From positions 1-37,074 of the IMG/VR virus record IMGVR_UViG_3300046171_000123: a stretch of DNA of 37,074 nucleotides; one strand, 5' to 3'. Source of the DNA: a virus. Shown piece by piece: positions 1-37,074 of the stretch. Each line of letters starts with the position of its first letter. The first letter of the stretch is position 1. The notes under the pieces are model-generated. The model saw nothing but the letters and a program-made list of their open reading frames with translations. It searched no databases and was not told where the DNA came from. Position numbers and translations under genes: made by a program.

Positions 1-85
1 CGCCAACGTCCTCGTTTCTGTTTGGGGGCAGGGGGGGGTCAAAATGTTTTTCAAAGCTCATCCAAGGCAGGTTAACGTGGACTTT

Positions 86-95
86 ATCGTGGACA
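86..95 (+). repeat. ATCGTGGACA motif, junction copy
   Basis: The motif lies inside CGTGGACTTTATCGTGGACA (76-95), which matches CGTGGACATTATCGTGGACA at 9379-9398 in 19 of 20 positions. The element thus has two half-motifs (CGTGGAC and CGTGGACA) in tandem about one helical turn apart. The other copies flank attP, so a protein acting at attP, such as the integrase or a directionality factor, is one possible binder. A regulator bound at both loci is the alternative. Confidence 0.6.
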
Positions 96-120
96 AGGCC
101 GTTATGGTCAGGAACCATGC

Positions 121-157
121 GGTGCTGCATCTGATCTAAACTCAGATGCCCTGCACC
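121..157. terminator. Long hairpin after the leftward zinc-ribbon/LacI gene
   Basis: GCATCTGA (127-134) pairs perfectly with TCAGATGC (142-149) around a 7-nt loop, and GGTGC (121-125) pairs with GCACC (153-157) across a small internal bulge. It starts directly after the leftward stop codon at 161-163. There is no T-run on the leftward strand, so it is not a classic intrinsic terminator. It could be a Rho-dependent 3' end structure, a processing site or a protein-binding site. CATGC-N6-GCAT (116-130) overlaps its left arm. Confidence 0.45.
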
Positions 158-160
158 AAA

Positions 161-661
161 TCAGGGTCGATTTCGTGCGAGATATTTGCTCTTCCGGAGT
201 CGCTGAGAGACCTTCTCACAACTACCCCCACAACTACTACCCCCGTTCCTTCCCCCACCGTCCCCATAATCATTAGCAACCACATCGACAACCAACCGAT
301 CACGGAAGTAGCGCCCCTTAACGCCAAGCAGTCGAGCAATCTCCCGAATCCGATCAGCATTCTCAGTGGTGACGAACTTATTCCGATTTCCGGTAAGGGT
401 AGCGGTTACAGCAGCAGGAGAGACATTGGCGAGTTGGGCAACCTGTCGACGTAGACCGAACTGACATCCACAACTGGAGGAGTTGCCACTGACCAGATTC
501 CCCCGCTCAATGGTCCGTTCTTGTCCACAGAGGGTACAGAGACAGAGCCAATAGGTACGACTCCCTGACTTGACAGAACGCTTCCTGCTATGGGAGTAAC
601 GAAGGACAATCAGACGTCCGAACTCCTCCCCAATGATACTCTCATCACGCCTTCTTCCCAT
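161..661 (-). CDS. Zinc-ribbon protein fused to a LacI-type HTH
   Basis: The N-terminal half (about residues 8-70) has the phage zinc-ribbon pattern found next to AP2/HNH domains: EFGRLIVLRY, then WLCLCTLCG, then NLVSGNSSSCGC. The Cys pairs probably bind zinc. Residues of about 72-112 (QVAQLANVSPAAVTATLTGN, then ENADRIREIARLLGV) read as a LacI-family helix-turn-helix with its hinge-side helix. The tail is Gly/Ser/Arg-rich. No HNH or nuclease residues are visible, so I infer a DNA-binding regulator rather than a homing endonuclease. The start is supported by AAGGAGG just upstream, which lies inside the end of the small terminase gene; the two overlap by 17 bp. A paralogous ribbon sits at 1455-1754. 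Confidence 0.7.
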   Translation of the reverse strand: MGRRRDESIIGEEFGRLIVLRYSHSRKRSVKSGSRTYWLCLCTLCGQERTIERGNLVSGNSSSCGCQFGLRRQVAQLANVSPAAVTATLTGNRNKFVTTENADRIREIARLLGVKGRYFRDRLVVDVVANDYGDGGGRNGGSSCGGSCEKVSQRLRKSKYLARNRP

Positions 662-1178
662 CGTCCTCCTTATCTTCCAATTCCTTCGTTGGATTAACGA
701 CCTTGATCTTCTGATCCAGTTGTTTCATGGAGAGTTCTCGTATGGCTTCCAGGTGGACCTGAGTCAGATCTGTGGTTTGGACATCGACCTTGGTCTTCTC
801 TCCGTAGCGATCAGGATCATATCTGCTGGCTAACCACTGGTAAGCATCGATGGCAATCTTGGCCTTCTTGGGATCAGGGTTATCAGCATCAGACTGATCC
901 AAGGCATTTGCATTATCAGTAATCTTCGAAGCTAAGAAGGCAGCATGATCTCTCATGGCTGCCTCATGGCGTTCGCCAATCTCTGGATGTTCCTTGAGGT
1001 ATCGATAGTATTCTCGATAGGGAATAGCGTACCCGTCGAGTAGTTTCCGAATGGCCCCAAACTGAGTGATCTGGTTAAACCAGTTGTCCCACCACTCAGG
1101 ATCTGCTGCCATTTCGTAGAACCGTGCAACCTTTGCTTCCTTGCGGGAGTGCCCTCCCTTCACTGGTCGTTGAGCCAT
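645..1178 (-). CDS. terS: Terminase small subunit-like protein
   Basis: This 177-aa protein has the layout of phage small terminases: an N-terminal helix-turn-helix region (about residues 30-75, with IPYREYYRYLKEHPEIGERH), a helical oligomerisation region, and the family's signature of a Trp-containing helix followed by SRYDPDRYGEKTKVDV (about residues 119-133). Small terminases recognise the packaging site and hand DNA to the large subunit. The gene follows the iteron-like, AT-rich region at 1187-1437. It is separated from terL by the circle junction and six recombination or unknown genes, whereas most phages keep terS and terL adjacent. No strong Shine-Dalgarno sequence precedes the ATG, so a start at Met23 is possible but less likely. 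Confidence 0.75.
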   Translation of the reverse strand: MAQRPVKGGHSRKEAKVARFYEMAADPEWWDNWFNQITQFGAIRKLLDGYAIPYREYYRYLKEHPEIGERHEAAMRDHAAFLASKITDNANALDQSDADNPDPKKAKIAIDAYQWLASRYDPDRYGEKTKVDVQTTDLTQVHLEAIRELSMKQLDQKIKVVNPTKELEDKEDDGKKA

Positions 1179-1186
1179 TAGAATCT

Positions 1187-1437
1187 GTCGAGTAGGTCGA
1201 CTAACGGAGAGTACCCTTAGTCGACACGTTAAGTATCTAATATTATTACTATAATATACTATATATTATAGAGAGAGAGTAGTATATATACCGTAGAGAG
1301 AGATGATGTTCTTTTTGGAGAGTAAAGGGATTTACTCGACTACTCGACAAATGTCCTCTTTCCATAACGTTATCAGTGAGTTAACGTGTCGAGTAAGGCA
1401 CTCGCCCTCTACTCGACTACTCGACAAATCTGTCGAC
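1187..1437. promoter_or_regulatory. Iteron-like array around an AT-rich palindrome (candidate origin or operator)
   Basis: Nine YTCGAS hexamers (GTCGAC, CTCGAC or GTCGAG) start at 1187, 1196, 1220, 1335, 1343, 1388, 1412, 1420 and 1432. A 20-bp direct repeat, TACTCGACTACTCGACAAAT, is exact at 1333-1352 and 1410-1429. TCGACACGTTAA (1221-1232) is inverted at 1381-1392. Between them is an AT-rich core with the perfect inverted repeat CTATAATATA (1249-1258) and TATATTATAG (1262-1271), followed by two GA tracts. ATAACGTTAT (1364-1373) is a further palindrome. The pattern of repeated protein sites beside easily melted DNA is that of a replication origin; a complex operator for the terS transcript, or a packaging site, are alternatives. 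No gene lies within 1179-1454. Confidence 0.6.
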
Positions 1438-1454
1438 TAGAGGATACTTTCCCC

Positions 1455-1754
1455 TCATTGTGTTTTGCTAAATCTCCCCTTGGAATCCCGTGCAATCAGA
1501 CGGTTTCCAAAGAAGTAATCCTTTCCTTTCTTTCGCCAATTCTCCCGTGTCAACTCTGCTGCGAGGCACCCACACGATTTGGAAGAACCATTTCGTAGTG
1601 CATATGCCTTAACGGTCCCGATCCACCCGCAATCGCACAGAGTTCGGTACATAACGTGCCCACATTCATCTGAATCGACCCGTCTGATCACTTTCCATCT
1701 GCCAAAGCGTTCCCCTGACAGATCCTTGTAAACACGTTGTCCTTTTGCTGGCAT
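1455..1754 (-). CDS. Small zinc-ribbon protein, paralogue of the ribbon at 161-661
   Basis: This 99-aa protein carries the same ribbon as the LacI-fused protein: ERFGRWKVI, then LCDCGWIG, then LRNGSSKSCGC, followed by a basic tail with RDSKGRFSKTQ. The family is common in phage AP2/HNH endonucleases, but no catalytic HNH residues are visible, so DNA binding is the safest inference. I chose the ATG at 1754 because GGAG lies six bases upstream; an upstream in-frame ATG at 1790 has no well-placed Shine-Dalgarno. The frame stays open further upstream to an amber codon near 1909. The gene ends beside the repeat array at 1187-1437, so the two ribbon genes bracket that array and terS. Confidence 0.65.
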   Translation of the reverse strand: MPAKGQRVYKDLSGERFGRWKVIRRVDSDECGHVMYRTLCDCGWIGTVKAYALRNGSSKSCGCLAAELTRENWRKKGKDYFFGNRLIARDSKGRFSKTQ

Positions 1755-1982
1755 AGCTACTCCATTTCTGGTGTCGGGAACAACGACCATCAGCTTTCGA
1801 GAGACTCCTAAGATCCTCGTTATTGCTTCACGCAGAAGTGTCCTGTTGCATGCGAAGGTTCCCGTGGAATCCTCATAGAGAAAAAGAACCCTCTTTCCGG
1901 TGGGCAGCTACATGCTGTGAGTGCGATAGCGTGAGCACTCAACGCTCCCCGTGTCCATGACCGTGTTCCCCAAGGACCACTC
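1755..1982. other. Non-coding stretch with an open remnant frame and a hairpin
   Basis: No complete gene is convincing here. On the leftward strand the frame of the 1455-1754 gene is open back to a TAG near 1909. Before that TAG the same frame holds a 16-codon ATG-initiated stretch starting MDTGSVECSR. This may be the decayed 5' end of a longer gene. TGAGTGC (1918-1924) and GCACTCA (1935-1941) form a 7-bp stem with a 10-nt loop. Confidence 0.35.
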
Positions 1983-2174
1983 TTACCTTGAAGAGTGTTC
2001 CAACCGAAACAGAATCATCCGACAGTGTTGGCAATACTTCTGATGCCTTTGGTAGAAGGGCATCTTGTTTGGTTTCTTGTCTCCACACCGTGGACAGGTT
2101 CGTAACGAGGAGGAGAGTTCTAACTCTCTCCTCTCGTTTCTCTCTTCTTCCTTTCGAACCGATTGATCACACAC
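1983..2174 (-). CDS. Small zinc-finger protein
   Basis: The C-terminal half holds two CxxC knuckles, RTCPRCGDKKP and YCQHCR, about 22 residues apart, preceded by a highly charged Arg/Glu-rich stretch. This resembles small phage zinc-finger proteins with a CxxCG-(K)KP-FY-CxxC pattern; the partner is unknown. The start is uncertain. The GTG at 2174 gives 63 residues. An ATG at 2309 would give 108 residues but would overlap the MazG-like gene for most of its length in another frame. Its position in the early leftward operon suggests a host takeover or DNA-binding accessory role, which is inference. Confidence 0.45.
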   Translation of the reverse strand: MCDQSVRKEEERNERRELELSSSLRTCPRCGDKKPNKMPFYQRHQKYCQHCRMILFRLEHSSR

Positions 2175-2371
2175 TCCAGGTAGTTGGCGAGATCCATTGC
2201 CTCTTCCTGTGCGTGTCTTAACCAGTCGATCACTGAGAAATCCTCTCTGGCGAGAGTATTCTCGTACTTCCGGAGACCGTACCTGGACCTTTCCCTCATC
2301 TTCCTGCATACCTCCTCCACCACTGGATCAATTATCTCAACATCCTTCTGAGAGTTCTCAGATCTTTCCAT
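2120..2371 (-). CDS. MazG-like/all-alpha NTP pyrophosphatase-like protein
   Basis: The 83-aa sequence reads RSRYGLRKYENTLAREDFS followed by WLRHAQEEAMDLANYLECV. The spacing of RYG-x2-KY-x-TL-x-R and HA-x-EE-x2-D-x3-YL is typical of small phage proteins annotated as dATP/dGTP or MazG-like pyrophosphohydrolases. In these the EE and D residues coordinate Mg2+ in a helical bundle. Such enzymes adjust nucleotide pools or alarmones during infection; which substrate applies here cannot be seen. It lies directly after the hairpins that follow the primase-helicase gene. Confidence 0.6.
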   Translation of the reverse strand: MERSENSQKDVEIIDPVVEEVCRKMRERSRYGLRKYENTLAREDFSVIDWLRHAQEEAMDLANYLECVINRFERKKRETRGES

Positions 2372-2390
2372 AACGTCCTTTTCTAGTTTT

Positions 2391-2448
2391 GCCTATGCAA
2401 TGGCATAGGTTGGATTCAAAAACGTCACTACAAGGCGTTTTATGAATC
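2391..2448. terminator. Tandem hairpins after the primase-helicase gene
   Basis: CCTATGC (2392-2398) and GCATAGG (2403-2409) form a 7-bp stem with a 4-nt loop. Next to it GATTCAAAAACG (2413-2424) pairs with CGTTTTATGAATC (2436-2448), apart from one bulged base, across an 11-nt loop. The second hairpin overlaps the leftward stop codon at 2440-2442 and has an A/T-rich stem. In the leftward direction its 3' arm contains five consecutive T, giving a terminator-like form. Partial termination between the replication genes and the following genes is a reasonable reading. Confidence 0.5.
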
Positions 2449-4566
2449 CTTCAGTTCTAGCACAGAATCCTTCTTGATCTTTGCCCTCTTGAAGACCAAC
2501 AGGTCTGCATTGACCAAGTTCTCAATAATCCGGTCATACTCCATCGTGTCTCCACTCAGCACCTTCGACCTGACTAACGTCCGGTACTCCACACTTCCGC
2601 CTTTCTTCGCAATGTATGCCCTTACCTTCTCGTTCTTCGTATCCACTGGACTTGCTCCAAAGTGCGAGTTGAGCAGAATCGTCGTCGATTGAATCGCATA
2701 CCAAAGCACTGCCCAGGCACTCCGGAGACTCTCCTCCGTTGGGGTCGGTCTCCGACGATCCAGCACCAGTTGCATCAGCATCGCTAACTTCAGCAATGTT
2801 GGACCCCACCTCTTAGCAAAGACATACAGATACTGCTGTATCTTTGGATCAGCACCCTCACACACATCATAGATTCGGTTAAAGTAGTCCTCATAAAGTG
2901 CCCGTGCCTCCTTGCTCATGTCCTTGATCAGCACTTCCCTTGGTTCTTCTGTCAGCATCTTCATACAGAGATCATGGAGAGTCTGATATGACCCCCATTC
3001 TCTCTGATTAACAACGACCCCCCTCTTCGGTAAGGGAGCGGGTCGTTTCCCATGATTCGAGGGAGGGACAAACCACAGGAAACGTGGAAGAAACCCGCTC
3101 AAAAGATCATCTTGACCAATGTGCCCTTTGAGGAACTCAATGGTCGACACTCCACAGATGGACATATAGGGCCGATCTATCCGAATCGACCCATGTCCTC
3201 TGGTCCTCTCTTCAATCACATCATCGACGTCATAGGCAGCAGTCAGTCTGCTCTTCATACCTTCGTTGTACTTGGCATTGACGTTACTCAACCAACTGTT
3301 GAACTCACTCAGTATCCAGACTCCTCCACCTTGCTCCTGCAAAGCATCCAAACAACTCTGCCAAGTAAACGTTCCTGGAAGTGTTCGCTTCCGTGACTGG
3401 TAAAGTGCTGCCTTCCCCTCTTCATTCCGTTGAGCAAACTGCTGAGACAACTGGTTGTTGTACCCATCGATGTCCTTTAAAAGTCGACTCCCTGCCGTCA
3501 ATCCCGTCGACTTAAATGCTCCACTTGGGGCAATAATCACAGACCAGATATTAGGATGAAGTTCCTGGAAGTAGTCACTGCACCAGACCCTGTGCATGGC
3601 ATAGCCAGAGAGAGTGGAGAGCATTGACATCGTGGGAATGATGCTGCTGCTCTCCGTGGAGGCACTCGCACTGGTGACGAACTCAGCGAGTGTGGCGGGA
3701 AGGACGTCTGGCTCAAAATCTGGCAGTTTCTGCTCCGTTAAGACCTTCTGAGCAATCTCCTTTAGGTGCTTCTGTAGCTTCAACTCGTTAACGTGGACCT
3801 GATGACGTTTCTCATCCGGTTCAAACAGATCCGCTTCCCTTAACCCCAATGCCTTGCAGATGTCTGTAAAAGAACATCCTGCATGGCAGTTCATCAGGAT
3901 CTTGTCATCTGTTAATGTAACGGTCAGAGAGGGTTCTTCATCATTGTGTGCAGGGCAACAACCCTGCATCACCCGTGGCCCCTTGGGTTTTGCCTTTTCC
4001 AACCTGCTGTTGATCTCTGCCCATCTCTCTGCCAGAGTCATTGGTCCCCTAGCATTCTCATTGTATGAGACATCCTTATCGTGACTAAGTGCCAGCATTT
4101 GACCCACCCTCCTCATGCTTTCATCGATAAGTATCGAATACCTTTGAGCAAAGTATTCCTGATAATAAGCAAACGCCTTTTCATGCGGAAGCGAACCCGT
4201 AAGCACCACAGCATGAATTCCTTTTCTAACTGACCAATGTCTTGATACGACATACGGATCAGTCCCCATCTTTTCATACGCTTCAGTATCGTCCTTACCA
4301 TCATAATCGACTCCCAGATACCCGCTATGTTCTTCCAGACATGCGGTAGAAACGTAGGAGAATCGTCCACTGTAAGCGACTGTGGGCAGGGATCTCTTTA
4401 AATCCCCTGCCTTCTTTGGCTCAGTCTTCAACAATGAACGAATCTGCTCCGTTACCCCTTTGAGCTTTCGACAGGACCGGATCTCCTCAATGACCTCCTC
4501 AAGTGTTTGATACTTTTCAACCTTGTGGTCTCGTACATTCCTAGTTCGTGTCAGCAGTTGGGACAT
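2440..4566 (-). CDS. Primase-helicase: VirE_N/BT4734-like + zinc finger + DUF3987
   Basis: This protein of about 708 residues looks like the replication initiator/primase-helicase. The N-terminal 65-165 region (SGRF, LGVDYDGKDD, VSRHWSVRKGIHAVVL) matches the VirE_N/BT4734-like domain related to archaeo-eukaryotic primases, with an acidic D-x-D pair. Residues of about 205-233 form a CHC2-like finger: CPAH, then LMNCHAGC. Residues of about 300-680 match DUF3987-type ATPases, with the P-loop IIAPSGAFKST at about 346-356. Together these suggest priming plus DNA-stimulated ATPase/helicase activity, feeding the host polymerase since none is encoded. The start is taken as the ATG at 4566; a TTG two codons upstream is possible. 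It overlaps the preceding gene by 26 bp. Confidence 0.75.
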   Translation of the reverse strand: MSQLLTRTRNVRDHKVEKYQTLEEVIEEIRSCRKLKGVTEQIRSLLKTEPKKAGDLKRSLPTVAYSGRFSYVSTACLEEHSGYLGVDYDGKDDTEAYEKMGTDPYVVSRHWSVRKGIHAVVLTGSLPHEKAFAYYQEYFAQRYSILIDESMRRVGQMLALSHDKDVSYNENARGPMTLAERWAEINSRLEKAKPKGPRVMQGCCPAHNDEEPSLTVTLTDDKILMNCHAGCSFTDICKALGLREADLFEPDEKRHQVHVNELKLQKHLKEIAQKVLTEQKLPDFEPDVLPATLAEFVTSASASTESSSIIPTMSMLSTLSGYAMHRVWCSDYFQELHPNIWSVIIAPSGAFKSTGLTAGSRLLKDIDGYNNQLSQQFAQRNEEGKAALYQSRKRTLPGTFTWQSCLDALQEQGGGVWILSEFNSWLSNVNAKYNEGMKSRLTAAYDVDDVIEERTRGHGSIRIDRPYMSICGVSTIEFLKGHIGQDDLLSGFLPRFLWFVPPSNHGKRPAPLPKRGVVVNQREWGSYQTLHDLCMKMLTEEPREVLIKDMSKEARALYEDYFNRIYDVCEGADPKIQQYLYVFAKRWGPTLLKLAMLMQLVLDRRRPTPTEESLRSAWAVLWYAIQSTTILLNSHFGASPVDTKNEKVRAYIAKKGGSVEYRTLVRSKVLSGDTMEYDRIIENLVNADLLVFKRAKIKKDSVLELKDS

Positions 4567-4858
4567 AGCCAAGGCATTGCTTCACAAAGGTCTCTCCAAA
4601 CAGGGCACGATCATCTGCAGACATGGTCATCACTTCCTGTTGAGTGTAGACCTCCTTGAACTTTTCAATCACACAACTGCACTGAAAGAATGCCATGTTA
4701 ATCGCAAACTGTTCTGGCACACCAGACATCGTCGGGTCTTTGTAAAGCGTTGCCGTACACTGGTGAACCCACTGAGCGACAAAGGCCACTCCGTAGGTAT
4801 TTGGACAAGCGAAGGCAATGCTAGGCAGCATCACTAACGTTAAAAGAAACTTCTTCAT
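4541..4858 (-). CDS. Secreted Cys-rich protein
   Basis: The 105-aa product begins MKKFLLTLVMLPSIAFA, a clear Sec signal with an AFA cleavage site followed at once by Cys; a weak lipobox reading is possible. The mature part has Cys residues in CPN, HQCTA, FQCSCVIEKF and KQCLGY, enough for two disulfides in the periplasm. I do not recognise the family. A secreted protein made from the replication operon is unusual and suggests a superinfection-exclusion or envelope-modifying accessory gene, by inference only. Its ATG overlaps the upstream stop by one base (TAATG), so it is probably translationally coupled. Confidence 0.65.
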   Translation of the reverse strand: MKKFLLTLVMLPSIAFACPNTYGVAFVAQWVHQCTATLYKDPTMSGVPEQFAINMAFFQCSCVIEKFKEVYTQQEVMTMSADDRALFGETFVKQCLGYVPTADTN

Positions 4859-7851: not shown

Positions 7852-8901
7852 ATGACTAGAAGAGTCGTCAGAGTTGCTTATCACCCATCCAAGAATCGAT
7901 GGGTTGGTAAGTATATGATTGAAGACCAGATCCGCACTGTGCAACTATGCACAGATGCTGATCTTGATGAGAGAGGACTCAACAAGAAGAAGAACGAAGC
8001 AAAACGTTCTCTCTTCTTGGATGAGCTATATCTCAGAAAATATCCCACCCAAAAGGTTCAGCACCGACTGACCCCATTCCAAAGAAGTAGGAAGGACTTC
8101 CTCAAACACATTGAGGCAGTCTGTGATTACAGAACCCTTGTCTCTTACCGTGGCACCCTCAACCGACTGACCGACCTCACTGCTGATGCCATCAGCGAGT
8201 TCATCGTTACAAGTCGAGAGATGGGTCTCAAGGACTCATCTATCAACTCACATCTACGATGTGTGAAGAGGTTCTCCAGATGGGTAGCCGAGCGAGATAA
8301 CACTCGACCCGTCAAGATTACCTTCTTGCGGGAAAGCAAGAAGACGATCAAAGCCTATACGCCAGAGCAGGTAGAGACCGTAACGAACTACCTGCTCTCT
8401 CAGTGGAACAACACCGGAGAGAGACGGTACTGGATACAACTCAAGGCAGTGGCTTTTATGTCCTGCCTGGGTCTCCGTGGTGGGGAAGTCAACAGTCTGC
8501 ATTGGCAAGATGTGAACCTGCTTCGAAACACGGTTCACATCCATGATAATGAGTTTAACAGGGTCAAGGGTAGGAAGGACGTCTACCTGCCAATGCCTGA
8601 CAAACTCAGAGAGTTCATTCAGACCATTCCGGAGCAGGAACGCTTTGGATATGTGCTAGAACGTTACTACAAGGATGTACAGATCCTCTCCAGAGCATTC
8701 CACCGGATTCATGACAAGATGGAGTTCACTGGTGCGAAGTCGTTGCACGGGTATCGTGCGTATTTCTGCACCCAACTCTTCAACTCTGGACGACAGGCAC
8801 CAAAGGTTCAGAGGTTGATGCGTCACTCTTCATTGGTGACGACCAACCTCTACTTGGATGAAGAACAGGATCAACTGGCGGATGCCATTAACGTATTTTA
8901 A
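7852..8901 (+). CDS. int: Tyrosine-family integrase
   Basis: This 349-aa enzyme has the full catalytic set: Arg209 in CLGLRGGEVNSL, Lys242 in GRKD, His299 and Arg302 in LHGYRAYF, His325 in LMRHSSLVTT, and Tyr334 in NLYLD. Residues of about 70-160 form the core-binding domain, and the N-terminal 60 residues resemble an arm-binding beta-domain. It catalyses strand exchange between attP and the bacterial attB. The attP carrying a tRNA-Lys 3' half lies about 330 bp downstream. GAAGGGAG lies six bases before the ATG. Next to the repressor, it marks the phage as temperate. Confidence 0.95.
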   Translation: MTRRVVRVAYHPSKNRWVGKYMIEDQIRTVQLCTDADLDERGLNKKKNEAKRSLFLDELYLRKYPTQKVQHRLTPFQRSRKDFLKHIEAVCDYRTLVSYRGTLNRLTDLTADAISEFIVTSREMGLKDSSINSHLRCVKRFSRWVAERDNTRPVKITFLRESKKTIKAYTPEQVETVTNYLLSQWNNTGERRYWIQLKAVAFMSCLGLRGGEVNSLHWQDVNLLRNTVHIHDNEFNRVKGRKDVYLPMPDKLREFIQTIPEQERFGYVLERYYKDVQILSRAFHRIHDKMEFTGAKSLHGYRAYFCTQLFNSGRQAPKVQRLMRHSSLVTTNLYLDEEQDQLADAINVF

Positions 8902-8912
8902 AGGAGAGGGAT

Positions 8913-9176
8913 ATGAATATCGAAAAAGCACTAGAGCAAGAGAAGGGTCGAATCTTGAGACCAGAGCATGTCATCGAAGCAATGCAGATTTGCTATGCTT
9001 TGGCTAACTATGGTCCAGAGTCACCACTACAAGACAAGGTGAACCTAATCAATGCAGCACAGTCGTTAATGAAGAAGATGGAAGAAGCAGAGAAGAGGCA
9101 TCTGAAGAAGTTAGCAAAAGAGGAAGCCAAGAGGCAGACTCTGATGACCTTGTCGATGAATCGTGGACAAGCGTAG
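8913..9176 (+). CDS. Small unknown protein between integrase and attP
   Basis: The 87-aa product begins MNIEKALEQEKGR and ends in a Lys/Glu-rich helix (KKMEEAEKRHLKKLAKEEAK). I do not recognise it. Its position, 11 bp after the integrase and directly beside attP, is where excisionases often sit, but no winged-helix or MerR-like motif is visible. AAAGGAGAGG is well placed before the ATG. An ATCGTGGACA motif falls at 9160-9169, inside its last codons. Confidence 0.6.
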   Translation: MNIEKALEQEKGRILRPEHVIEAMQICYALANYGPESPLQDKVNLINAAQSLMKKMEEAEKRHLKKLAKEEAKRQTLMTLSMNRGQA

Positions 9177-9200
9177 CATATCGTGTCCTTATCGTGTCCA
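9160..9200. repeat. Left cluster of ATCGTG[GA/TC]C motifs beside attP
   Basis: ATCGTGGACA (9160-9169) is followed by ATCGTGTCC (9180-9188) and ATCGTGTCCA (9191-9200). The latter two are spaced 11 bp apart, one helical turn. Together with the right cluster at 9377-9402 they bracket the tRNA-derived core, the usual geometry of integrase arm sites. Confidence 0.5.
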
Positions 9201-9235
9201 CCACCCGCTAGACCAGTGTTTGCCTAGCATTGTAT

Positions 9236-9284
9236 TCGACTTTTAATCAGGTGGTCCAGGGTTCGAGTCCCTGTCAGCCCACCA
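9236..9284 (+). other. attP core: 3' half of tRNA-Lys(UUU)
   Basis: The sequence reads as the anticodon loop CTTTTAA (anticodon TTT), then a perfect T-arm with CAGGG (9257-9261), TTCGAGT and CCCTG (9269-9273), then TCAGCCC-A-CCA ending at 9284. The 5' half of a tRNA (a GGGCTGA-like acceptor and D-arm about 75 bp upstream) is absent. This is a tRNA fragment, as used by integrases that insert into tRNA genes and restore the 3' end. The host should have a tRNA-Lys(UUU) with this 3' end and encoded CCA. Confidence 0.85.
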
Positions 9285-9300
9285 GAAAAGACTAAGGAAT

Positions 9301-9325
9301 TCAGCGACTTGTCCTGAGTCGCTGA
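9301..9325. terminator. Perfect 9-bp hairpin between converging genes
   Basis: TCAGCGACT (9301-9309) pairs with AGTCGCTGA (9317-9325) around a 7-nt loop. It lies between the rightward gene ending at 9176 and the leftward gene ending at 9403. On the leftward strand it is followed by a T-rich but interrupted stretch. It may terminate the late leftward transcript before attP, or be a structural part of attP. Confidence 0.5.
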
Positions 9326-9376
9326 TCCTGCCTCCTACCTCTAAAAAATCCCATTACCAAAGAGTTTAAGGCTTTT

Positions 9377-9402
9377 ATCGTGGACATTATCGTGGACACG
9401 AT
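9377..9402. repeat. Right cluster of ATCGTGGACA motifs beside attP
   Basis: ATCGTGGACA occurs at 9377-9386 and 9389-9398, 12 bp apart. The second copy extends to ATCGTG-GA-CACGAT (9389-9402), a palindrome apart from its two central bases. CGTGGACATTATCGTGGACA (9379-9398) matches 19 of 20 bases of the element at 76-95. Confidence 0.55.
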
Positions 9403-10977
9403 TTAGTCATATAGCAAAGACTCTTGACCAGTTTCTTGCTGGCTTCCCAAGAGTCCTGCACTGATCAACGGCAGAGCAAACATCAGTTCTGGGAACTTCT
9501 TGAATAATGCTTTGCGTTCTTCTTCAGATCCGTATTCCAAAATTTTTCGTATTCCTGCTTTCTTTAATAATGGTTTTACTTTCTTACTAACATCCTTGGG
9601 AATGATTGCTCCCTCAAACTCTGAAAGCTCAACTCCTCTCTTTGGTTTGATCTCGAAGTATTCAGTAGGCATCTCTCTCAATTCTGTTCGCAATTCCTGC
9701 GCTTTGGTTTTTAGTTGATCTGGAACAGAATGAGGGAACCAATCTTTAAACGATCTGCCAGTAATTAAATCTTCAGATAACCCTTCAATCGTGTTGTAAT
9801 TTCGATAACCACTCGAAGATGGAAAATTGTCAGCTATGTAATCTTCAACAGATTTTTGAAAGTCTATGATTTTTTGGTCTGATTTTTCTCTTAAAATATC
9901 AAATTCTTCTGTTGATATTATTTTGTCTCTTTCACCTTTTATTTCAGAAAAACTTTTAAATCTCTTTCCAACTTTGGATCTAAGGTTGCCACCTCCAAAG
10001 GAATCAATCCCAACATCCCCCTGTTCTTTTTCTACAGACCTCATTTTTTTTACAATATTGGGCAATGTCGCAGAAGAATAAACTCGACCGTTGTCAGTTA
10101 TCCTTTGAAGAATTCTTTCATTAACACCCCCACCTTCTTGTAATATTTTGTTTCTCTTAGAAAGCACCCAGTCTCGGAACTCAGCAGATGGGATACGCTT
10201 TCTGATTTCTTCTTGGTAATCTAGTTTCCCCTTATAATCGTCTGGGTAATCCGATCTTTTTACTGATTGTTTTTTTGTTTTTAAAAATTCATTTCTTAGC
10301 AAGTCATCAATATTTGATTTATAATCACCAAAATCATTTGAAATTAGTTTCTTTGCTACACTCTCAGCAAAATATTCATTGCCTAACCGGAATTTTTTAT
10401 TGACTAACTTAATAAAATCTTCGTTTGGGGTTTTTTCTATGTCTGGAACTCTTACCGTATAAGCATCAAACCCATATACCGGATTCTTTGCACTTGGCTT
10501 TGCCATCTCAGGACTTGCCAACAGACTAATATCACCAAAGTCAGTCAGCGGATTCTCTGCCTTGCTGACTGCAATGGAGGGCATTGGCAATCCCCCAATA
10601 CGATTTGCCCTTTCTAAAGGTTCTACATTTATGTTGTGCTGCACAATCATCGGGTCATCGGGAGGAGTTACTGCTTTCTGTACTTTGGGCAGTACCTTTC
10701 TAACTGACCCTACTGCTGCAGTGGGCAACCCCTGCCCTGACATCCCTGCTTCTGTCAACAGAGACTGATACTCTGGTTCTTCCATCAAGTTATCGAAGCG
10801 ATCTCTTGGAGTTGCAAACGGAGTAGTTGGATACTCCTCAGAGTACAGCAGAGACTCTGCTGCTGGACGCATGGGAGACAGAAAGGTCAGAGAGTCGACA
10901 AACTCTCTGAACCTTCTGCCATAGTCGTCATTGGTGGCAATCGGAGAACGTCGAGAACCGTAACGTCGAGGAGTCAT
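9403..10977 (-). CDS. Large-polyvalent-protein-like protein next to attP
   Basis: The 524-aa product has two stretches that I associate with domains of injected phage polyvalent proteins. One is GGLPMPSIAVSKAENPLTDF, then FGDISLL and DAYTVRVP (about residues 128-178). The other is YFEIKPKRGVELSEFEGAII, then KKAGIRKILEY (about 440-485). The middle (about 180-390) is Lys/Asp/Glu-rich, and its DNA is visibly more AT-rich than its neighbours, with runs of T and A. Last in the virion operon, after the ejection proteins and the small basic protein, it may be packaged and injected. No catalytic motif is recognisable. It ends beside attP, a usual place for accessory genes. Confidence 0.6.
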   Translation of the reverse strand: MTPRRYGSRRSPIATNDDYGRRFREFVDSLTFLSPMRPAAESLLYSEEYPTTPFATPRDRFDNLMEEPEYQSLLTEAGMSGQGLPTAAVGSVRKVLPKVQKAVTPPDDPMIVQHNINVEPLERANRIGGLPMPSIAVSKAENPLTDFGDISLLASPEMAKPSAKNPVYGFDAYTVRVPDIEKTPNEDFIKLVNKKFRLGNEYFAESVAKKLISNDFGDYKSNIDDLLRNEFLKTKKQSVKRSDYPDDYKGKLDYQEEIRKRIPSAEFRDWVLSKRNKILQEGGGVNERILQRITDNGRVYSSATLPNIVKKMRSVEKEQGDVGIDSFGGGNLRSKVGKRFKSFSEIKGERDKIISTEEFDILREKSDQKIIDFQKSVEDYIADNFPSSSGYRNYNTIEGLSEDLITGRSFKDWFPHSVPDQLKTKAQELRTELREMPTEYFEIKPKRGVELSEFEGAIIPKDVSKKVKPLLKKAGIRKILEYGSEEERKALFKKFPELMFALPLISAGLLGSQQETGQESLLYD

Positions 10978-36866: not shown

Positions 36867-37074
36867 CGCCAACGTCCTCGTTTCTGTTTGGGGGCAGGGG
36901 GGGGTCAAAATGTTTTTCAAAGCTCATCCAAGGCAGGTTAACGTGGACTTTATCGTGGACAAGGCCGTTATGGTCAGGAACCATGCGGTGCTGCATCTGA
37001 TCTAAACTCAGATGCCCTGCACCAAATCAGGGTCGATTTCGTGCGAGATATTTGCTCTTCCGGAGTCGCTGAGA
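36867..37074. repeat. Terminal direct repeat, right copy
   Basis: This is an exact copy of bases 1-208. Features described in 1-208 (hairpin, GTGGACA motifs, the end of the zinc-ribbon gene) occur here a second time and should be counted once in a circular genome of about 36,866 bp. Confidence 0.97.

Follow-up and report, generated by a model that had tools for sequence, protein, structure and literature searches.

A TASTCGAC iteron array between the replication and packaging genes of an uncultured temperate phage is probably its replication origin

We analysed a virus genome of 37,074 bp (IMG/VR record IMGVR_UViG_3300046171_000123, positions 1-37,074; hereafter the window) in which a dense array of short repeats (iterons) lies between the replication genes and the packaging genes. 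This array is probably the replication origin of the phage. It is best read as an origin of the type known from Staphylococcus aureus pathogenicity islands (SaPIs), with iterons 3′ of the rep gene, here about 1 kb past a primase-helicase gene. The array is real and functionally constrained: it has a defined anatomy, exceptional conservation and a single location in the genome, while wider relatives reveal a rule of position and, in one clade, co-variation with the primase-helicase (Rep). The most likely reading is an origin of an already known class, carried by a family of uncultured phages.

The repeat unit is TA[C/G]TCGAC (TASTCGAC), mostly with A as the next base. Nine units fall within 260 bp, compared with at most three in the best 260-bp stretch of 200 dinucleotide shuffles, and GTCGAGTA occurs 10 times where 0.68 occurrences are expected. 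The array is the highest-scoring repeat cluster of the whole genome, and TASTCGAC forms no second cluster elsewhere in it. The parts of the array are as follows.

1183-1440: the array as a whole, in which nine TASTCGAC sites surround an AT-rich core; candidate replication origin.
1183-1232: left iteron module, with sites at 1187-1194 (minus strand), 1196-1203 (minus) and 1218-1225 (plus).
1226-1332: AT-rich core with two GAGAGAGA tracts; proposed unwinding region.
1249-1271: AT-rich perfect palindrome, arms 1249-1258 and 1262-1271 (10 bp each) with a 3-bp loop.
1333-1440: right iteron sets, with sites at 1333-1340 and 1341-1348 (plus), 1388-1395 (minus), 1410-1417 and 1418-1425 (plus) and 1432-1439 (minus).

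The core has 24% GC over 80 bp, placing it in the lowest 0.15% of genome windows, and is flanked by iterons on both sides. The array ends are inverted copies of about 50 bp (1183-1232 and 1381-1429, 82% identity). An earlier note, made from the letters of this DNA, had described a gene-free array with a perfect 20-bp direct repeat (1333-1352 and 1410-1429), a perfect 12-bp inverted repeat (TCGACACGTTAA, 1221-1232 and 1381-1392) and the AT-rich palindrome. All three repeats are present at these positions, the inverted repeat sits within a 28-nt pair of 82% identity, and the stretch contains no credible gene. The motif given for the array, nine YTCGAS hexamers, did not hold up: only six sites in 1187-1437 match it, and it is not enriched genome-wide (71 occurrences, 70.5 expected).

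Only one close relative was identified, IMGVR_UViG_3300025769_001510 (L007), which aligns to the region with 81-89% DNA identity. Between the two, identity is 93.9% in the array, 82.5% in terS and 69% in the first of two zinc-ribbon genes (ribbon 1). A run of 92 identical bp (1214-1305), mostly AT-rich core, is the longest in 11.4 kb of alignment. Thirteen of the 16 differences in the array fall outside the nine sites, and two of the three within sites are C/G exchanges at the degenerate third position. Residues 518-710 of the primase-helicase are 98% identical.

In L007, the counterparts of window positions 1-1440 and 1770-3022 adjoin each other at a single point, and 1441-1769 is absent. The second zinc-ribbon gene is thus missing from a phage that bears the array, so it is an insertion beside the array (or was lost from L007) and not a needed partner. 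We therefore rejected it as such, and the bracket of paralogous ribbon proteins that the earlier note had seen around the array is accidental. Array-bearing L212, one of the wider relatives, likewise has no ribbon gene with a helix-turn-helix (HTH) domain between terS and terL. L007 additionally encodes a cytosine-5 DNA methyltransferase (L007:2675-3613) at the place of the window's small open reading frames (ORFs).

We gathered about 150 further loci through alignments of terminase (TerL) and portal proteins, 34 of which have a primase-helicase gene upstream of terL; these loci are not independent, as many share a Rep type. In 31 of the 34, the 3′ end of the primase-helicase gene carries a repeat cluster within the top 2% of the locus, which in 23 loci is the very top cluster. 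Of 82 other ORFs with 350 or more codons in these loci, only 2 have a top-2% cluster at their 3′ end. The rule covers at least five Rep builds (Toprim-D5-DUF5906, D5-DUF5906, PriCT_2-AAA_25, Prim-Pol-AAA_25 and AAA_25). The arrays of wider relatives have lineage-specific words at the primase-helicase 3′ end. Units often end in ACAAA, as in GTTGGAACAAA, GGGAACAAA and GGAGACAAA of relatives and CTACTCGACAAAT of the window. L212, L204, L207 and L205 each have two iteron sets in opposite orientation with an AT-richer core between them, and the L212 array, like that of the window, has the primase-helicase gene on one side and terS on the other. DnaA-box words (TTATCCACA) occur within the arrays of L122 and L165.

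Co-variation was assessed in the Toprim-AAA_25 clade (16-17 loci), the best-sampled clade and the only one tested, by comparing the similarity of repeated words in the arrays with the identity of the Rep C-terminus, the Rep core and TerS. Array similarity follows the Rep C-terminus when Rep core and TerS are controlled (partial Mantel r 0.43-0.48, p 0.0005), and the correlation persists if the comparison is limited to DNA 3′ of the stop codon. With Rep controlled, the corresponding r for TerS is about -0.2. Two natural exchanges agree with this pattern. L179 and L186 have similar arrays (0.88) and identical Rep C-termini (1.0) with TerS identity of 0.70, while L170 and L179 share no array words (similarity 0.0) at TerS identity of 0.96 and Rep C-terminus identity of 0.46. 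The C-terminus of the relatives' Rep is predicted to form a winged helix (pLDDT, the predicted local distance difference test score, is >90 over most of the domain). This model matches winged helices of CRP, MCM, ORC and Cdc6 at Z scores of about 7-8, which indicates a shared fold only. No P4-alpha structure stood out among the winged-helix matches listed, an absence that is uninformative.

The genes considered with the array are as follows.

161-661, minus strand: ribbon 1, a protein with a zinc ribbon and a LacI-type HTH; neighbour of the array.
645-1178, minus strand: terS, terminase small subunit (PF20901, Sf6-type); a neighbour and not a likely binder.
1455-1754, minus strand: second zinc-ribbon gene, adjoining the outermost iteron; absent in L007.
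2120-2371, minus strand: small gene between primase-helicase and array, of a PHROG family of unknown function.
2440-4572, minus strand: primase-helicase, recognised by Pfam and PHROGs; proposed initiator (Rep).
2443-2640, minus strand: last ~65 residues of the primase-helicase; proposed winged helix for iteron binding.
7852-8901: integrase.

terS and the two ribbon genes are placed as in the earlier note. The second ribbon ORF spans 1455-1790; a better start, with a Shine-Dalgarno sequence, lies at 1754. L204 and L207 likewise have a small gene at the place of the 2120-2371 gene. The primase-helicase combines a BT4734-like N-terminus, a weak DnaG zinc ribbon and a DUF3987 helicase part. DUF3987 scores above cut-off, and PHROG primase and helicase families match too; the whole protein has no sequence match in the PDB.

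We propose that several copies of an initiator bind the TASTCGACA iterons on both sides of the AT-rich core. The initiator would most likely be the primase-helicase itself, encoded about 1 kb upstream, and it may contact the iterons through a C-terminal winged-helix domain, a proposal that draws on the relatives with a predicted C-terminal winged helix. The AT-rich core would then melt, the helicase part would load, the primase would begin synthesis and replication would start at the array. The earlier note had set the primase-helicase aside while observing that no other canonical initiator is present; the protein set aside is the best candidate initiator.

This arrangement resembles several known systems. 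Rep helicases of SaPIs and of staphylococcal cassette chromosome mec (SCCmec) elements use their C-terminal domain to bind iterons directly downstream of rep (PMC7581432). Like these elements, the window has several short iterons in a non-coding stretch 3′ of a primase/helicase gene, and in its relatives the Rep C-terminal domain co-varies with the iterons. Unlike them, it is a tailed-phage genome in which rep and array are set apart by the inserted ribbon gene plus one or two small genes, and its Rep is a DUF3987-type primase-helicase whose iteron binding is proposed by analogy. The alpha protein of phage P4 is a primase-helicase fusion with type I iterons. The window protein shares the fusion and, putatively, origin binding by a C-terminal winged helix; it differs in iteron word, in having one array instead of ori plus crr and in its DUF3987 helicase part. 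L212 Rep has the P4-like build of Toprim and D5-type helicase. A structure of the winged-helix origin-binding domain of P4 alpha is attributed to Yeo et al., 2002, in PMC4234260. In plasmid pRN1 the origin falls within the 166 bp that follow the primase-helicase gene orf904 (PMC4234260), and is thus also 3′ of such a gene; unlike the window array it uses a stem-loop, and iterons were not found there (PMC4234260).

Several observations weigh against a replication origin served by the primase-helicase. The window's own case, whose basis is synteny and anatomy, is the weak point. A single-sequence fold of the window C-terminus reached a pLDDT of 45 and is unusable, and this C-terminus does not match the C-terminal profile of the relatives. 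The other related contigs searched contain no homologue of the DUF3987 type, so the window's Rep type falls outside the co-variation test. From the primase-helicase stop codon to the array the distance is 1.0 kb (645 bp in L007), where the rule of position would place the array right at the gene; L205 departs from the rule in a similar way. A freshwater clade has arrays close to terS, and no primase-helicase gene was seen next to these. The window array contains no DnaA box, and the cumulative GC skew proposed as a check in the earlier note has no extremum at the array, a test of low power because nearly all genes are co-oriented. Two freshwater phages carry the repeat words GGGTTTACCC or GCACTCACTAAC where early and late genes diverge (L223:3087-3190 and L132:1566-1630).

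A packaging start of the pac or cos type is rather unlikely. TerS would here bind repeats just upstream of its own gene, and the large terminase would cut nearby. The outermost iteron is only 9 bp from the terS start codon, and two groups of repeats that flank a bent or AT-rich centre recall the pac site of phage P1. Relatives often have repeat clusters upstream of terS, a frequency that suggested a packaging site at first. The pac repeats of SPP1 and SF6 occupy the same place immediately upstream of terS (PMC4737164); those of SPP1 span the terS promoter and start.

The arrays of the compared phages track Rep and not TerS. Within the Toprim-AAA_25 clade, controlling for Rep leaves no tendency of arrays to follow TerS, and the exchanges described above agree. 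Arrays stay through TerS exchange, and they vanish beside a nearly identical TerS: L193, whose TerS is 97% identical to the L212 protein, has no array in the 985 bp upstream. L223 and L132 have the same TerS protein with different repeat words. In L204 and L207 the array sits behind a convergent terS whose 3′ end faces it, and in L239 a 238-codon gene (L239:5815-6528, encoding a protease-like 237-residue protein with a HELTHA motif) separates array and terS. The idea that arrays upstream of terS are pac sites thus failed on L193, L223/L132, L239, L204/L207 and the Mantel test. In SF6, the repeats were not specifically bound by the DNA-binding domain of TerS (PMC4737164). Of the two functions offered in the earlier note, packaging is therefore disfavoured and a replication origin stands on comparative evidence, although not with the ribbon proteins and TerS as binders.

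Very unlikely, in our view, is an operator of the terS operon or a late-promoter region, bound by the HTH of ribbon 1 or by another phage regulator, with the inverted modules looping. The array is directly 5′ of terS, and the LacI-type HTH of ribbon 1 passes the Pfam cut-off in L007. The terS start codon (1178) has no Shine-Dalgarno sequence, several other phage genes having a clear one, and its leader would contain three sites. Against this function stand the convergent terS of L204 and L207, the intervening gene of L239 and the lack of a ribbon-HTH gene between terS and terL in L212. The core has no recognisable sigma-70-like promoter on the terS strand, and the unit clusters nowhere else in the genome.

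A centromere-like parS site for plasmid-like maintenance of the prophage is highly improbable. A similar octamer precedes a ParA gene in L020, but neither ParA nor ParB was recognised among the window proteins scanned, which did not include every ORF, and the phage encodes an integrase and has an attP. Next to no probability attaches to the array being that attP, with repeats around the AT-rich core acting as integrase arm-type sites, because a better candidate beside the integrase (9238-9284, a 47-bp stretch from the 3′ end of a tRNA-Lys, with flanking repeats of its own, TTATCGTGGACA) largely refutes it.

With the array read as a replication origin, the pairing of Rep and iterons across the family, together with the rule of position, is a more interesting outcome than a single origin. 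Possibly, and we suggest it tentatively, iteron word and Rep C-terminal domain are replaced jointly and fast while the Rep core and the structural genes stay. If so, origins of close relatives would not cross-react, defining replication-specificity groups comparable to plasmid incompatibility groups, and such groups could decide which of the co-infecting phages replicates. It is rare for the replication origin of an uncultured phage to be located, and searching the 3′ end of the primase-helicase gene for the densest repeat cluster offers candidate origins in dozens of genomes without culture. The pairs of iteron and Rep C-terminus are ready for tests of origin recognition and of replication compatibility among related phages. 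Repeats adjoining terS, by the same comparison, need not be packaging sites.

The window phage is temperate, and almost all of its genes are oriented leftward. In order of transcription, a Sak4-like annealing protein, the primase-helicase, small genes and the second ribbon gene precede the array, which is followed by terS, the ribbon-HTH gene, a RecE-type exonuclease, RusA, terL, portal and other structural genes. The record has an exact 208-bp terminal repeat (1-208 and 36867-37074), about 1 kb from the array. These identical ends imply a circular or terminally repeated genome with a unit of about 36,866 bp, and the repeat reflects either overlapping reads in a circular assembly or a direct terminal repeat that is physically present. 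phiM5, a relative by terL, has an annotated terminal repeat of 357 bp. A paired repeat at the attP arms (9375-9398) recurs in the terminal repeat of the window (72-95 and 36938-36961).

The 47-bp attP sequence, which with its flanking repeats lies in 9150-9400, has an exact match in two metagenome-assembled genomes of Deltaproteobacteria, which hints at the host group. A search of 52 genomes of the possible host's class, made without a positive control, found no prophage relatives. There were no Rfam or tRNA matches. The most AT-rich part of the genome encodes a protein with a PBECR5 nuclease domain (9403-10977).

A scan of viral contigs for pairs of GTCGASTA returned 112 stretches, mostly in unrelated phages. 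The iteron word was dropped as a marker of shared function: only in L033 does a dense array lie near a terS of another kind, and one such case among about seven dense arrays is unsurprising. L033 (2833-3100) and L113 (1-290) belong to one 65-kb virus and carry similar GTCGAGTAGG-like arrays with GA tracts, one of which adjoins this different kind of terS. The octamer cluster of L020 (6405-6445), in a 53-kb contig, directly precedes the ParA-like gene and recalls mycobacteriophage parS. A 23-kb viral contig (L022:108-868) has a very dense palindromic TAGTCGACTA array with 33 octamer matches, to which clusters in L058, L075 and L101 are related. Finally, in phage DSL-LC05, TGACCCACTGGGTCA-like palindromes form an array that ends shortly ahead of terS (L120:3218-3750).
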